Source: a virus. From it: a stretch of 26,427 nucleotides of DNA. Below are positions 3,680-26,427 of this stretch, one piece after another. The position numbers and the translations under genes are program-made. The stretch spans positions 1 to 26,427 of IMG/VR virus record IMGVR_UViG_3300020470_000179; one strand, 5' to 3'. The notes below the pieces were generated by a model, which was not told where the DNA came from, searched no databases, and saw only the letters and a list, made by a program, of their open reading frames with translations. The stretch's first letter is position 1. Each line of letters begins with the position of its first letter.

Positions 3680-3701
3680 TTGAAAACATAAAATGAGTTT
3701 A

Positions 3702-4361
3702 ATGAAAATTTTTCTGGACTGCTCTGATATTGATTTGATTAAACAATCATATTCTACAGGGTTAATAGATGGAGTAACAACAAATCCAAGTCTGATGTTG
3801 AAGAATGGGCATCAACCAATGGAAGTGTTGAAAGAGATATCTGAAATTTTTCCTTTCCATTCTTCAATTTCTGCTGAGGTTGTAGGAGAAACAGAAGATG
3901 ATATGTTGAGGATGGCAGAGAAGTATCTTGAAATTGGTCCAAACATTACAATCAAAGTACCTTCTACACGTACAGGTCTTAGAGTATGTAAGAAATTATC
4001 CAATGATGACATTCCTGTTAATGTGACCTTGATTTTTTCAGCAAATCAGGCTATACTAGCATCAAAGGTTGGTGCAACCTACGTATCTCCTTTCATAGGA
4101 AGACTCAATGATCAGTATTGGGATGGTATTAATTTAGTGGAGGAAATTTCTGATGTATTCTCAACGCATGGTTCTAAGACTCAAGTACTTGCTGCTTCAA
4201 TTAGAGAACCAGTTCAAGTCGCAAGATGTTTTCGAGTGGGGGCTGATATCTGTACTCTGCCTTGGGATATATTTAATAAGATGTATGACCACTGCTTAAC
4301 GGATGCTGGTATGGAAAAATTTGATTCAGATTGGAAGAAACTACAGGACGCAATCAAGTGA
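3702..4361 (+). CDS. talC: Transaldolase, small FSA/TalC type
   Basis: TalC transfers a dihydroxyacetone unit in the pentose phosphate pathway. In cyanophages it is an auxiliary metabolic gene thought to shift host carbon from the Calvin cycle toward NADPH and ribose for nucleotide synthesis. Visible are DGVTTNPSL and the Schiff-base lysine in NITIKVPST; the lysine falls at residue 85, as in E. coli FSA, when the ATG at 3702 is used. VLAAS and the TLPWDIF segment near the C-terminus also match. The alternative ATG 3693 adds three residues; 3702 is preferred from family alignment (MKIFLD) and promoter spacing. At 219 residues it is of normal family length. The stop overlaps the next gene as GTGA. 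Confidence 0.93.
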   Translation: MKIFLDCSDIDLIKQSYSTGLIDGVTTNPSLMLKNGHQPMEVLKEISEIFPFHSSISAEVVGETEDDMLRMAEKYLEIGPNITIKVPSTRTGLRVCKKLSNDDIPVNVTLIFSANQAILASKVGATYVSPFIGRLNDQYWDGINLVEEISDVFSTHGSKTQVLAASIREPVQVARCFRVGADICTLPWDIFNKMYDHCLTDAGMEKFDSDWKKLQDAIK

Positions 4362-5992: not shown

Positions 5993-6018
5993 GGAGGACA
6001 TCAGTCCTCCTTTTTTTT
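5993..6018 (+). terminator. Rho-independent terminator
   Basis: GGAGGAC-ATCA-GTCCTCC is a perfect 7-bp hairpin followed by eight Ts. A 12-base palindrome GATAAGCTTATC lies just upstream (5978-5989). Confidence 0.92.
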
Positions 6019-6044
6019 GTTCTGTTCTCCGTACAAATACCTAC

Positions 6045-6073
6045 TTTACAAAACTTTAGATTTGCTATATAAT
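6045..6073 (+). promoter_or_regulatory. Strong sigma70-type promoter for the hli block
   Basis: TTTACA (6045-6050), a 17-base spacer and a perfect TATAAT (6068-6073). Predicted start is about 6080, 18 bases before the hli ATG. This suggests early expression by host RNA polymerase. Confidence 0.8.
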
Positions 6074-6097
6074 ATTGTTACGTTTCTTTACAAACGA

Positions 6098-6310
6098 ATG
6101 ACAACTTCAAGCAACAGTATTAATCGTTATACTACTACTGAAGATGGTGGCAGACAAAATATGTTTGCTGCTGAACCTCAGATAGAAGTTCTTGACGTTA
6201 ACTACTGGGAAAATGCCGAGCTAGTCAATGGTCGCCTTGCGATGATGGGATTAGTTATCGGAGTGTTTAATTACACCGTCTTCGGATGGGTAATACCAGG
6301 CATTCTTTAA
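6098..6310 (+). CDS. hli: High-light-inducible protein
   Basis: This 70-residue Hli/CAB-like protein has an N-terminal hydrophilic arm, then NYWENAELVNGRLAMMG, the chlorophyll-binding E-x2-N-x-R-x-A-M-x-G helix. The single membrane helix ends GWVIPGIL, as in cyanophage and Prochlorococcus Hli proteins. Hli proteins sit in thylakoid membranes, bind chlorophyll and carotenoid, and protect photosystem II, so this gene complements psbA downstream. ATG 6098 is chosen because the frame upstream runs through the terminator and promoter. There is no clear Shine-Dalgarno. Confidence 0.93.
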   Translation: MTTSSNSINRYTTTEDGGRQNMFAAEPQIEVLDVNYWENAELVNGRLAMMGLVIGVFNYTVFGWVIPGIL

Positions 6311-7295: not shown

Positions 7296-8378
7296 ATGAC
7301 TACTCTTCAACAAAGAAGTAGCAGCCCGCTTAAGAATTGGGATGAGTTTTGTCAGTGGGTTACTTCCACAGACAATCGCCTGTACGTTGGTTGGTTCGGA
7401 GTCCTTATGATTCCATGTCTTCTAACTGCTGCCACTTGTTTCATTATAGCTTTTATCGCTGCTCCACCTGTCGATATCGACGGGATCAGAGAACCAGTTG
7501 CTGGCTCTCTATTATACGGTAACAACATCATCTCTGGTGCTGTTGTACCATCATCCAATGCTATTGGAATGCACTTCTATCCCATCTGGGAAGCAGCAAC
7601 CATTGATGAATGGTTGTACAACGGAGGTCCATATCAATTAGTAATAATGCATTTCCTTATTGGTATCTGTGCTTACATGGGTCGCCAGTGGGAATTATCT
7701 TATCGTTTAGGAATGAGACCTTGGATCTGTGTTGCTTATTCAGCCCCAGTATCAGCAGCTTTTGCTGTATTCCTCATCTATCCTTTCGGACAAGGATCAT
7801 TCAGTGACGGTATGCCTCTCGGCATTTCGGGTACGTTCAACTTTATGTTTGTCTTCCAAGCGGAACATAATATCCTCATGCATCCATTCCACATGGCAGG
7901 TGTGGCGGGTATGTTTGGTGGTGCCCTGTTTAGTGCTATGCATGGTTCACTTGTTACGTCTTCACTTATTCGTGAGACAACAGAGCAAGAGTCACAGAAC
8001 TATGGATACAAATTCGGACAAGAAGAAGAGACCTACAACATCGTTGCTGCTCATGGATACTTCGGACGTTTAATCTTCCAGTATGCATCGTTCAACAATA
8101 GTAGATCACTTCACTTCTTCCTAGCAGTCTTCCCTGTTGTTTGTATATGGTTGACCTCAATGGGTATATCAACTATGGCATTCAACCTTAATGGATTTAA
8201 CTTCAACCAAAGTATCTTAGATGCTAATGGTAAGGTTGTTCCTACATGGGCAGACGTTCTTAACAGAGCGAACCTAGGTATGGAAGTAATGCACGAGCGT
8301 AATGCTCACAACTTCCCACTAGACTTGGCTGCTGCTGAGGTTAGCGAGGTTGCACTTGTTGCTCCTGCTGTAGGTTAA
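7296..8378 (+). CDS. psbA: Photosystem II reaction-centre protein D1
   Basis: D1 binds the primary donor chlorophylls, QB and the Mn4CaO5 cluster in photosystem II. Phage copies replace the rapidly damaged host D1 during infection. The full 360 residues are intact without an intron or frameshift. There is one extra residue near the N-terminus relative to the standard numbering, so YZ is Y162, the D170 and E189/H190 ligands are D171 and E190/H191, and H119 matches H118. The [23 protein letters not shown] block (shown here only as its ends, NRANLGMEV and PLDLA) carries the C-terminal Mn ligands. A 15-residue extension follows the CtpA cleavage alanine A345. Residue 131 (standard 130) is Gln, the D1:1 type. 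The stop is coupled by TAATG to a tiny membrane peptide. Confidence 0.99.
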
Positions 8379-23320: not shown

Positions 23321-24037
23321 ATGGCATTACCTAAGTTAAATGTACCTAAGTACACTTTGAAGTTGCCCTCTGATGCTCGTAGAATAGTCAATTTTAGACC
23401 ATTTCTAGTTAAAGAGGAGAAATTGCTTCTTATAGCAACGGAAACAGGTGAACAACCTGAAATCGTTAAAGCTATTAAAAATATTATTACTTCATGTACT
23501 GATATTAAGGATGTTGACTCTTTATCAACATTTGATATTGAATATGTCTTCTTACAAATTCGTACCAAATCAGTTGGTGAGAATGTTACTGTAAGTGTAA
23601 CATGTCCTGATGATGGAGAAACTGAAGTTGAAGTTCAGATTCCTTTAGATGAAATTAAAGTCATTAAGGATAAGAAACATACAAAAGAATTGAAATTGGA
23701 TGAGGAAGTTGTATTAACAATGGGTTATCCAAGTTTAGATACTTTTGTACAAATGAACTTTACTGAAGAAGGTGGTGCTGGTGTTGATCAAGTATTCAAG
23801 ATGGCAGCAAGTTGTGTAGAACAAATTTCTGATCCTAATCAAGTATATGATTGTAAAGATGTTCCTCAAAAAGAACTTCTTGAATTTTTTGATAACTTGA
23901 ATAGTAAGCAATTTGGTGTTATTCAAAGTTTCTTTGAAACAATGCCTAAGTTGTCACATACTCTTAAAGTTACTAATCCTAACACTGGTAAGGAGAATGA
24001 AGTAGTACTGGAGGGTCTAGCAAGTTTTTTCGGCTAG
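23321..24037 (+). CDS. 26: Baseplate hub / tail assembly protein, T4 baseplate family (gp26)
   Basis: The 238-residue protein fits the T4 baseplate protein family: MALPKLNVPKYTLKLPSDAR, NFRPFLVKEEKLLLIATETG, IKNIITSCTDIKDVDSLSTF and DIEYVFLQIRTKSVGENVTV. A zinc-ribbon-like insertion with one cysteine (VTCPDDGETEVEV) follows, then LSHTLKVTNPNTGKENEV. It ends LASFFG at a TAG. Position before a short -1-frame partner and a tape-measure-like gene is the position of tail-assembly chaperones in other tailed phages. Whether this ORF corresponds to T4 gp26 or gp51 is uncertain; cyanophage annotations usually give gp26. A slippery site overlaps its last codons. Confidence 0.8.
   Translation: MALPKLNVPKYTLKLPSDARRIVNFRPFLVKEEKLLLIATETGEQPEIVKAIKNIITSCTDIKDVDSLSTFDIEYVFLQIRTKSVGENVTVSVTCPDDGETEVEVQIPLDEIKVIKDKKHTKELKLDEEVVLTMGYPSLDTFVQMNFTEEGGAGVDQVFKMAASCVEQISDPNQVYDCKDVPQKELLEFFDNLNSKQFGVIQSFFETMPKLSHTLKVTNPNTGKENEVVLEGLASFFG
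24010..24031 (+). promoter_or_regulatory. Candidate programmed -1 frameshift site (SD-like stimulator plus TTTTTTC)
   Basis: The heptamer T-TTT-TTC (24025-24031) is in the gp26 frame as AGT-TTT-TTC, a legal X-XXY-YYZ slippery site. GGAGGG (24010-24015) lies nine bases upstream, similar to the stimulatory Shine-Dalgarno of the E. coli dnaX frameshift. The zero-frame stop TAG comes one codon later (24035). A hairpin AAGGCA-ATTT-TGCCTT occurs at 24071-24086, rather far to act as stimulator. Confidence 0.75.
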
Positions 24038-24225
24038 CACTTCTTCATAACAGTCTACGTTCTTATTATGAAGGCAATTTTGCCTTAATACATCATCATA
24101 AGTGGAATATTGAGTATATTGATAACTTGATGCCTTGGGAAAAGGAGATTTACGTTAATATGTTAATAAAGTTCCTACAAGAGGAAGAACGACGTATGAA
24201 GGAGCAGAATCAATCTGGTGGCTAA
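24031..24225 (+). CDS. 51: gp51-like C-terminal frame, expressed as a gp26 frameshift fusion
   Basis: The frame encodes RLALLHNSLRSYYEGNFALI, HHHKWNIEYIDNLMPWEKEI, then YVNMLIKFLQEEERRMKEQ. This is the pattern of the short gp51-type protein following gp26 in cyanophages (YYE.NF.L...HKW...... .MP.E..IY..LL). The frame is open only from 24001 (TGA at 23998). Between there and the conserved part none of the codons is ATG, GTG, TTG, CTG or an AUN start; the first ATG is at 24133 and would discard half of the domain. Protein-like sequence begins right after the slippery heptamer, so the natural product is gp26 with this 64-residue extension. Alternatives are a sequencing error or a fragment. Confidence 0.75.
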   Translation, partial: RLALLHNSLRSYYEGNFALIHHHKWNIEYIDNLMPWEKEIYVNMLIKFLQEEERRMKEQNQSGG

Positions 24226-26427
24226 TACAAAGATAAAAGCATATAAATTTGTAAGCCCTGCTTCAGGAAGAGCAATGGGTGGTGCCGTTGCTTCTGCTCG
24301 TGTTACCACTATGGCTATTAATAGGCTAGGTGGTACTATTACTAGTATTGCTAATTGTACTAAGGATATCGAGAGAATTGCTGCTGCTAGTCAGAAACTA
24401 GAAGATCAGCAAGAGATCCTTGAAAGAAGAAGATTAAGAAGGGAACGAGATCAGGCAGCTGAGGAAGCTGCTGAAGTTGATAAGATGGAAAAGGGTCTTG
24501 ACGGCAAAAAAGCCGCCAAGAAAAAACCTGATAATAAAACGAAAAAGGGTATTAGAGGAGCACTCGGATGGCTTGAGCAGTTTTTAGGACCACTTAGTGC
24601 TCTCTTTAAGAAACTCTTTGCTATTGGTGTTATTAAATCTACCTTAGAATATATTGGCGATCCTCAAAAGATGGAGGAACTCAAATTATTCTTACATAAG
24701 GTAAATGTTGTATTTACGAAGTTATATAATTTTTCATCAGGATTAGTTAATTGGGGTTTAGATGGATTTGCTAAATTAAGTGATCCAGATGGTGATTTTG
24801 GTCAGAAAATTACGGGATTAGGACAGCTAATCACGGGTATCATAGGATTAAAGTACCTAATGAACCCATTTAGTCTCATAGCAGATATTATGGGATTGAT
24901 GGATTGGTTTACGAACCAGCTTCCTGGTGGTCCTGGTGGTGGTCCAAAACCAGATTTACCAAATCCAAAAACAATAGCTGATAAATTTGGTGATGCTGCT
25001 GCTAAACAATATAAAGCACTTTTAAAGAAGAATAAAAACGGAGCAAAGGTATTTTTAAACTCTCTTGAGAATGGTAAAAGTCTCAGGGGAGCATTGCGTG
25101 ATGCTAATAAAGCAATTGCTAAAATAGAGGCTGCCAAACCAAAGAAGAAAGGACCATTAGGTCAATTGAGTGATTGGTTTAATAAAGGAAAAACCAAAGC
25201 AGGTGAGATACTTGGTACTACTAAAACTAAAACTGGTAATCTTCTTACTAATATAGGTGAAAAGGTTACTGGTCAATTAAGTAAGTGGAATCAGAGTAGA
25301 AAAGGTGTTGGTAATTGGTTTAATAAAGGTAAAGATTGGTTATTTGAGACTGGTAGTAAGAAAATCCAGCAAGGTGTAGAAATTGGACAAGCAGTTTGGC
25401 AGAAGACTCAAAGGGCATTAGCAGAGAGAGTAAAGGGAATTGGAAATGCTATTAATGGAACCATTGATGGTGCTATAGGTGGATTTAATAAACTTAAAAA
25501 AGGTGCTCAAGAGACTATTATTAAGAGAATTCTCCAACCAATACAATCCTTATTAGATCCTTTGCTATCTAAGGTTAAAGGACTTGGTAAAGGTTTACTT
25601 GACAAACTTGCTAAAATACCTGGTATAAAACCAATTTTAGAGTTTTTAAAGACTAAATGGGGAATTACAAGTTTAGGTCAAGTTGGTAAATTAGCAAGTG
25701 AAATAGGACCTAAGATGCTAGTAGGCATCGGTGGTATTGTTAACTTACTATTTTCATATGAAAGATTTAGAAGTGAAGATTCTATTGGTGGTTTAATTGA
25801 AGGTGCATCAGGTGTTTTCGATCTTGCTAGTTTATTCACAGGAGGTACTGGATCTGTAATTTCCTCTGGTTTGGATGCGTACATGTTCGTCAGGGACATG
25901 ATGCCATTTATTATGCCAAATTGGGATTTGCAGAAGCAGGAGAATAAACTTGTTAATGCATTAGGTCTCAATACCTTTAAAGGTCAAGTTGATAAATTAG
26001 GTGCTAAATTACCTCCTTTAGGTAAGATTGTTGAGATGTTTAAAGGGAATGTATCAGATCCCCTTAAGGAGAATGTTCAAAAAGGTAGTGAGGAAGTTAA
26101 GAAGAAGGGATGGTGGCCTTTTTCTGCAGGTGGCAAACTTAAGTTGCAGGAAATGATTTTTGGTAAAATATGGAAAGGTGTAAAGAAAGTTGCTAGTAGT
26201 GTATGGAGTGGTGTAAAGAAAGTTGGTGCTGCAGTTGGTAAGATAACAAGTAATCCTATAATAGGAACTGCTTTATCATTTATACCTGGTGCTGGTCCTA
26301 TTATGGCAGGTATTAATGCTGCGGTTGGGTTGACTCAAGGTAATCCTTTACAAGCCATAATGGCAGGTGCTAATCATTTCTTCCCTGGTACAATGGGTAA
26401 GATTGGTGATTTTATGGATTCTAAATG
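24218..26427 (+). CDS. Tape-measure-like tail protein, 3' end beyond window
   Basis: The frame is open from GTG 24218 (AAGGAG at 24199-24204 upstream) to the window edge, 736 codons without a stop. It starts VANTKIKAYKFVSPASGRAM, has a charged coiled segment (EDQQEILERRRLRRERDQAA), then alternating hydrophobic helices and Gly/Lys-rich linkers (GLGKGLLDKLAKIPGIKP), a membrane-like GGIVNLLFSY, TGGTGSVISSGLDAYMFVRD, and repeated KGVKKVASSVW/SGVKKVGAAVGK units. Long helical, repetitive composition directly after a frameshifted chaperone pair is the classic place of the tape measure protein, which sets tail length and helps DNA entry. T4 gp29 is the counterpart but similarity is not obvious. ATG 24274 is an alternative start. 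It overlaps the gp51-like stop by 8 bases. Confidence 0.6.
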   Translation, partial: MANTKIKAYKFVSPASGRAMGGAVASARVTTMAINRLGGTITSIANCTKDIERIAAASQKLEDQQEILERRRLRRERDQAAEEAAEVDKMEKGLDGKKAAKKKPDNKTKKGIRGALGWLEQFLGPLSALFKKLFAIGVIKSTLEYIGDPQKMEELKLFLHKVNVVFTKLYNFSSGLVNWGLDGFAKLSDPDGDFGQKITGLGQLITGIIGLKYLMNPFSLIADIMGLMDWFTNQLPGGPGGGPKPDLPNPKTIADKFGDAAAKQYKALLKKNKNGAKVFLNSLENGKSLRGALRDANKAIAKIEAAKPKKKGPLGQLSDWFNKGKTKAGEILGTTKTKTGNLLTNIGEKVTGQLSKWNQSRKGVGNWFNKGKDWLFETGSKKIQQGVEIGQAVWQKTQRALAERVKGIGNAINGTIDGAIGGFNKLKKGAQETIIKRILQPIQSLLDPLLSKVKGLGKGLLDKLAKIPGIKPILEFLKTKWGITSLGQVGKLASEIGPKMLVGIGGIVNLLFSYERFRSEDSIGGLIEGASGVFDLASLFTGGTGSVISSGLDAYMFVRDMMPFIMPNWDLQKQENKLVNALGLNTFKGQVDKLGAKLPPLGKIVEMFKGNVSDPLKENVQKGSEEVKKKGWWPFSAGGKLKLQEMIFGKIWKGVKKVASSVWSGVKKVGAAVGKITSNPIIGTALSFIPGAGPIMAGINAAVGLTQGNPLQAIMAGANHFFPGTMGKIGDFMDSK

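Follow-up and report, generated by a model that had tools for sequence, protein, structure and literature searches.

A conserved T_TTT_TTN slip site and predicted −1 frameshifting between gp26 and a gp51-like frame in T4-like cyanophages and their relatives

We analyzed a window of 26,427 nucleotides (IMG/VR record IMGVR_UViG_3300020470_000179, positions 1–26,427), a contig of an uncultivated cyanophage, and found that gp26 and the start-less gp51-like frame behind it very probably form one tail assembly chaperone gene with programmed −1 frameshifting. The pairing of gp26 and gp51 through frameshifting had been put forward in the original prediction and is supported by the slip site, its register, its conservation, and the homology and fold similarity of the encoded proteins (Table 1). 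Most ribosomes would stop at the zero-frame TAG and release the short form, while a fraction would slip back one base on T_TTT_TTC, resume at CGG (24031), and produce a long form of 301 aa, in which gp26 residues 1–237 are followed by 64 further residues that add a helical domain. Judging from lambda gpG/gpGT, the short and long forms together would bind to the tape measure protein, maintain its solubility, and aid in assembling the baseplate hub and the tail tube around it; the slippage of the ribosome, the ratio of the forms, and the binding of the tape measure protein are inferred.

The 3′ end of gp26 (24023–24037) reads AGT-TTT-TTC-GGC-TAG and has, as predicted base for base, an in-phase heptamer of the X_XXY_YYZ type expected of a −1 frameshift site just ahead of the zero-frame stop. 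The GGAGGG announced nine bases upstream of the heptamer is equally present. The −1 frame is bounded by a TGA at 23998–24000 and a TAA at 24223–24225, and a scan for ATG, GTG, and TTG found its first start codons at 24127 (TTG) and 24130 (ATG), both in the middle of the domain, in agreement with the claim that the frame is start-less from the stop at 23998 to the domain. The residues encoded directly after the slip, RLALLHNSLRSYYEGNF, had been described as protein-like and are part of the conserved family phrog_634 (profile search of the −1 frame, E = 8.1e-30).

Table 1. Features of the gp26–gp51 junction in the window and the evidence for each
Feature	Position	Strand	Evidence
gp26 gene, predicted short chaperone form (TAC-N), 238 aa	23321..24037	+	PF12322, phrog_150, AlphaFold2 model
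GGAGGG, SD-like element, putative stimulator	24010..24015	+	match, spacing, codon bias in relatives
T_TTT_TTC slippery heptamer, in phase with gp26	24025..24031	+	register conserved in relatives
Predicted −1 frame extension (gp51-like domain, TAC-C), 64 aa and stop TAA	24031..24225	+	phrog_634
Zero-frame stop TAG, 3 nt past the heptamer	24035..24037	+	sequence
Possible stem-loop CTTCATAA / TTATGAAG	24043..24073 (24043–24050 paired with 24066–24073)	+	MFE fold of window; weak
Next gene, tape measure candidate, running past the window end, annotated elsewhere as "endolysin"	24218..26427	+	phrog_790, 9e-147

The junction was aligned across T4-like relatives, as the original prediction had suggested, and the heptamer and the −1 register were recovered at every evaluable locus outside the T4 group. 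Among the 80 viral contigs and two GenBank phages examined first, TTTTTTC was located three bases 5′ of the gp26 stop throughout, and gp51 was at −1 wherever it was readable. Across isolates and metagenomes, with T4-type loci and five incomplete loci excluded, each of the 223 evaluable loci had an in-phase T_TTT_TTN where gp26 ends. We then counted in a nonredundant set of 143 loci (61 clusters at 70% identity): the heptamer was found at the gp26 3′ end in 143 of 143, while none of the 149 other Phe–Phe pairs of the same genes formed it, a contrast that is absolute, although the sequences are related and the counts are not independent trials. In these loci, Phe–Phe is preceded by S, D, A, N, or G, and the codon for this residue always has T as its third base. 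As the preceding codon always ends in T and no internal Phe–Phe pair matches, we consider the slip site to be conserved far beyond chance and beyond the demands of coding.

The surrounding layout is similarly stable. The gp26 stop is 0 or 3 nt past the heptamer in 219 of the 223 loci, and the −1 extension measures 55–67 codons in nearly all evaluable ones. The run consists of six or seven T, mostly six, and C is the commonest last base among the nonredundant loci. The same layout with T_TTT_TTC, T_TTT_TTT, or T_TTT_TTG is found in the phages Aeh1, nt-1, DLP6, phiM12, phiM9, pf16, and RHph_I9, whose hosts are Aeromonas, Vibrio, Stenotrophomonas, Sinorhizobium, Pseudomonas, and Rhizobium. Three loci (L145, L146, and L148) have a T7 run and a gp26 stop 24 nt past the heptamer rather than 0–3 nt.

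The lack of a gp51 start, whose conservation the original prediction had proposed to test, holds for the window and for 28 of the 143 nonredundant relatives, where no start codon occurs within 8 codons of the site on its 3′ side. It is not shared by all, and an ATG 2–8 nt 3′ of the heptamer in the −1 frame is present in many relatives. Such ATGs, together with the annotation of gp51 as a gene of its own in several GenBank records, favor a separate small protein made from a nonstandard start codon or by reinitiation just past the gp26 stop. However, 104 of the 115 relatives with a start codon near the junction have no SD ahead of it, and a separate gp51 start was rejected as a general rule since 132 of the 143 have either no nearby start codon or one without an SD. 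A separate protein would also leave the retention of the heptamer in all 143 loci unexplained; the annotated starts in P-SSM7 and Syn33 fall inside the domain, and T4 makes the gp51 domain only fused to a gp26-like part. We thus regard a separate gp51 as a very unlikely explanation of the junction. Separate initiation appears possible in some phages, since 11 of the 143 have an SD-preceded start codon of their own near the junction.

The slip site is commonly accompanied by an SD-like element 5′ of the heptamer, found in 137 of the 143 nonredundant loci. A match of at least 4 nt at a spacing of 8–10 nt was observed at 94 of 96 loci, in comparison with about 25% of in-frame background windows, and an upstream SD-like element thus proved to be shared by nearly all relatives, a point that the prediction had proposed to check. 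The encoded LEGL motif accounts for part of this conservation. On the other hand, the Glu codon within the stretch is GAG in 64 of 89 cases, against 31% across the gp26 body, and where Glu is encoded by GAA, the next Gly codon is GGG in 16 of 25 loci, a codon whose share in the gp26 body is 5.5%. Because the choice of GAG and GGG codons is biased in this manner, we consider the element to be under selection at the nucleotide level. What we report for GGAGGG is its presence, and its role in stimulating the slippage is putative.

Predicted RNA folding in the relatives peaks immediately 3′ of the heptamer, with an overall mean z of −1.81 in comparison with codon-synonymous shuffles and of −0.28 and −0.45 for the controls. 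One sister clade has a covarying 11-bp stem that starts 5 nt past the site and whose covariation score is 0.182, against 0.086 in shuffled and at most 0.065 in slid alignments. Columns 14/28 of this stem hold U–A, G–C, and A–U pairs, a synonymous third base tracking a nonsynonymous change. The set with the 11-bp hairpin was picked for pairing and its percentage paired is therefore biased; fairer evidence comes from the covarying columns 14/28 and from the test in unselected clades. Another group (L029, L036, L044, L058, and others) showed a second type of hairpin about 10 nt past the site, GGTCC-ATAT-GGACC, whose variants GATCC/GGATC, GTTC/GAAC, and ATTC/GAAT look compensatory. In the window, the stem-loop of Table 1 is appealing by eye but reaches a z of only −1.36 in comparison with synonymous shuffles. 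The mean z of folding 3′ of the site in the window's own clade is −0.35 (n = 20), and no conserved downstream hairpin was found among these 20 sequences with synonymous shuffles. As the signal is absent from its own clade, we claim no hairpin for the window and keep the stem-loop as a weak candidate only: judged by folding and covariation, sister clades have a strong downstream hairpin, which is not conserved in the clade of the window.

A T-run could also join the frames during transcription, the RNA polymerase slipping on it and giving mRNAs with varied numbers of U. The T6 or T7 run at the site agrees with this, but a run of six T, the state in most loci, is short for efficient transcriptional slippage. 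Moreover, the single register T_TTT_TTN is retained in 143 of 143 loci with C as the commonest last base, and the SD-like and hairpin elements are stimulators of ribosomal slippage and would have no role in slippage by the polymerase. We consider this explanation very unlikely as well. Finally, T-runs are error-prone, but the recurrence of the layout in 223 loci of independent origin, from isolates as well as metagenomes, with the gp51 domain kept as protein in cyano-, vibrio-, aeromonas-, rhizobium-, and pseudomonas-phages, rules out a sequencing indel at the T-run of the window, one of the findings named beforehand as fatal to the frameshift, and makes an assembly artefact or a decayed gene exceedingly improbable.

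The assignment of the frameshifted gene to the tail assembly chaperones draws on the fused domains of T4 gp51 and on the best fold matches of gp26. In profile searches, gp26 of the window matches PF12322 (T4_baseplate, E = 1.7e-74) and phrog_150 (8.7e-86). Its AlphaFold2 model has a pLDDT of 90.6, and the VIA search of the PDB ranks 2ob9, the tail assembly chaperone of HK97, first (Z 7.6, 84 aligned, rmsd 4.1) and YqbN 3klu second (Z 7.2, 85 aligned), both matches covering residues 1–87 only and having a Z under 8, below the level for standing alone. YqbN is also a protein of the tail assembly chaperone type; the next match of the gp26 model is unrelated (Z 5.2). Foldseek gave no significant E-values for the gp26 model, and a search of solved structures by sequence returned nothing useful for gp26 or T4 gp51. 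The model of the T4-type gp51 has a pLDDT of 92.3 and a helical C-terminal part, and its VIA search listed no chaperone and no match above Z 5.

T4 was cited in the original prediction as having 26 and 51 as separate genes. They are indeed separate, but T4 is not a counterexample, since its gp51 is an in-frame fusion of a gp26-like part and the gp51 domain and its gp26 has lost the slippery codons. Residues 1–201 of T4 gp51 match PF12322 (3.9e-52) and residues 147–246 match phrog_634 (1.2e-23); in profile comparisons, the N-terminal part matches gp26 with a probability of 97.8% and the C-terminal part the gp51 frame with a probability of 79.8% (E = 1.5e-5). Because PF12322 and phrog_634 both match within it, we take T4 gp51 to be a ready-made long form, with the gp26-like domain and the gp51 domain in one frame. 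The T4-type gp26 genes readable in our data keep the Phe–Phe but spell it TTC-TTT, without the slip site. Short and long forms sharing their N-terminal part are thus found in both arrangements, by predicted frameshifting in the window and as gp26 and the gp26-like/gp51 fusion in T4, and by these matches two genes in T4 stand in for two frameshift products. The two-gene state is probably derived, because Aeh1 and nt-1, which belong to the same family as T4, Straboviridae, still have the site. One T4-type gp51 (L169, 2501–3246) contains an out-of-frame indel around residue 119 and reflects either a sequencing error or a broken gene.

In lambda (gpG/gpGT) and P2 (E/E′), a short protein and its −1 frameshift extension are encoded ahead of the tape measure gene, and the lambda slip site is G_GGA_AAG. 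The window shares with them the short protein and the −1 extension, and the best match of the first 87 residues of gp26 is the related HK97 chaperone, whereas its slip site is T_TTT_TTC and its gp26, at 238 aa, is larger. The SD-like element about 10 nt 5′ of the heptamer and, in sister clades, the stem-loop about 5 nt 3′ of it resemble E. coli dnaX; the heptamer and the gene are different, and the hairpin is not conserved in the clade of the window. Among T4-like phages, frameshifting is reportedly conserved in several groups but not in that of T4. Some T4-like phages are described as having a short gene alongside a longer, fused one (PRFect paper, PMC10885494, citing Vladimirov et al. 2022), and poly-T slippery sequences are known in their TAC-N genes (Adele paper, PMC12846349, citing Vladimirov et al. 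2022). As reported through these two papers, the study by Vladimirov, Gautam & Davidson (2022, Virology 566:9–15) on T4-like tail assembly chaperones concerns the same gene family with short and long forms and poly-T sites, the window differing in being an uncultivated cyanophage contig. The Vandenendeviridae phage Adele likewise has a conserved −1 site with a poly-T core where the short-form gene ends, and the downstream frame is often misannotated as separate, but the motif is GTTTTT and the phage family another (PMC12846349). A search of open-access papers found no description of this slip site in cyanophages. Since T4-like chaperone genes, the two-gene solution of T4, and poly-T sites are, by these accounts, already published, the idea of a frameshifted T4-like chaperone is correct but not new in kind, and the value of the present data is in confirmation, in breadth (223 loci), and in nucleotide-level evidence on stimulators.

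The gene following the junction shows, in addition to the match in Table 1, weaker matches to the tape measure profiles phrog_167 (3.3e-6) and phrog_991 (2e-4). The gene begins with a GTG that overlaps the gp51 frame at its end (24218–24225, GTGGCTAA). Among the 143 nonredundant relatives, the commonest start of the next long ORF is 5 nt ahead of the gp51 stop codon (42 loci), and −8 and −11 are common as well. Given the overlap in the window, translation of the tape measure candidate could conceivably be coupled to the frameshifted ribosomes; we hold this to be doubtful, but if true, the frameshift rate would govern the dose of the client as well as the long chaperone form. Elsewhere in the window, inspection of the ORF translations revealed the usual host-like gene set of cyanophages: nrdA/nrdB (1–2592), a transaldolase-like gene (3693–4361), a high-light-inducible-type protein (6017–6310), and psbA (D1; 7296–8378).

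The predicted frameshift also bears on how these genes are annotated and on two older observations. A frameshift annotation is absent from all cyanophage GenBank records examined, including P-SSM7, Syn33, and Syn1. The gp51 of these three phages (L001 2301–2396, L002 2262–2399, and L091 1558–1689, respectively) has its annotated start at an ATG within the conserved domain and is therefore truncated. Cyanophage and marine vibriophage gp51 have been described as being without about 200 N-terminal residues and Aeh1 as being without gp51 (Sullivan et al. 2010, PMC3037559). In Aeh1, gp51 is present but unannotated (L084, 2501–2674), at −1 after GATTTTTTC. The oddity would thus be explained: the missing N-terminal part of gp51 is gp26, joined to it by the predicted frameshifting. 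In T4, gp51 is needed for assembly yet is not in the particle (PMC3004832), and this old puzzle fits as well, since gp51 would be the long form of the chaperone.
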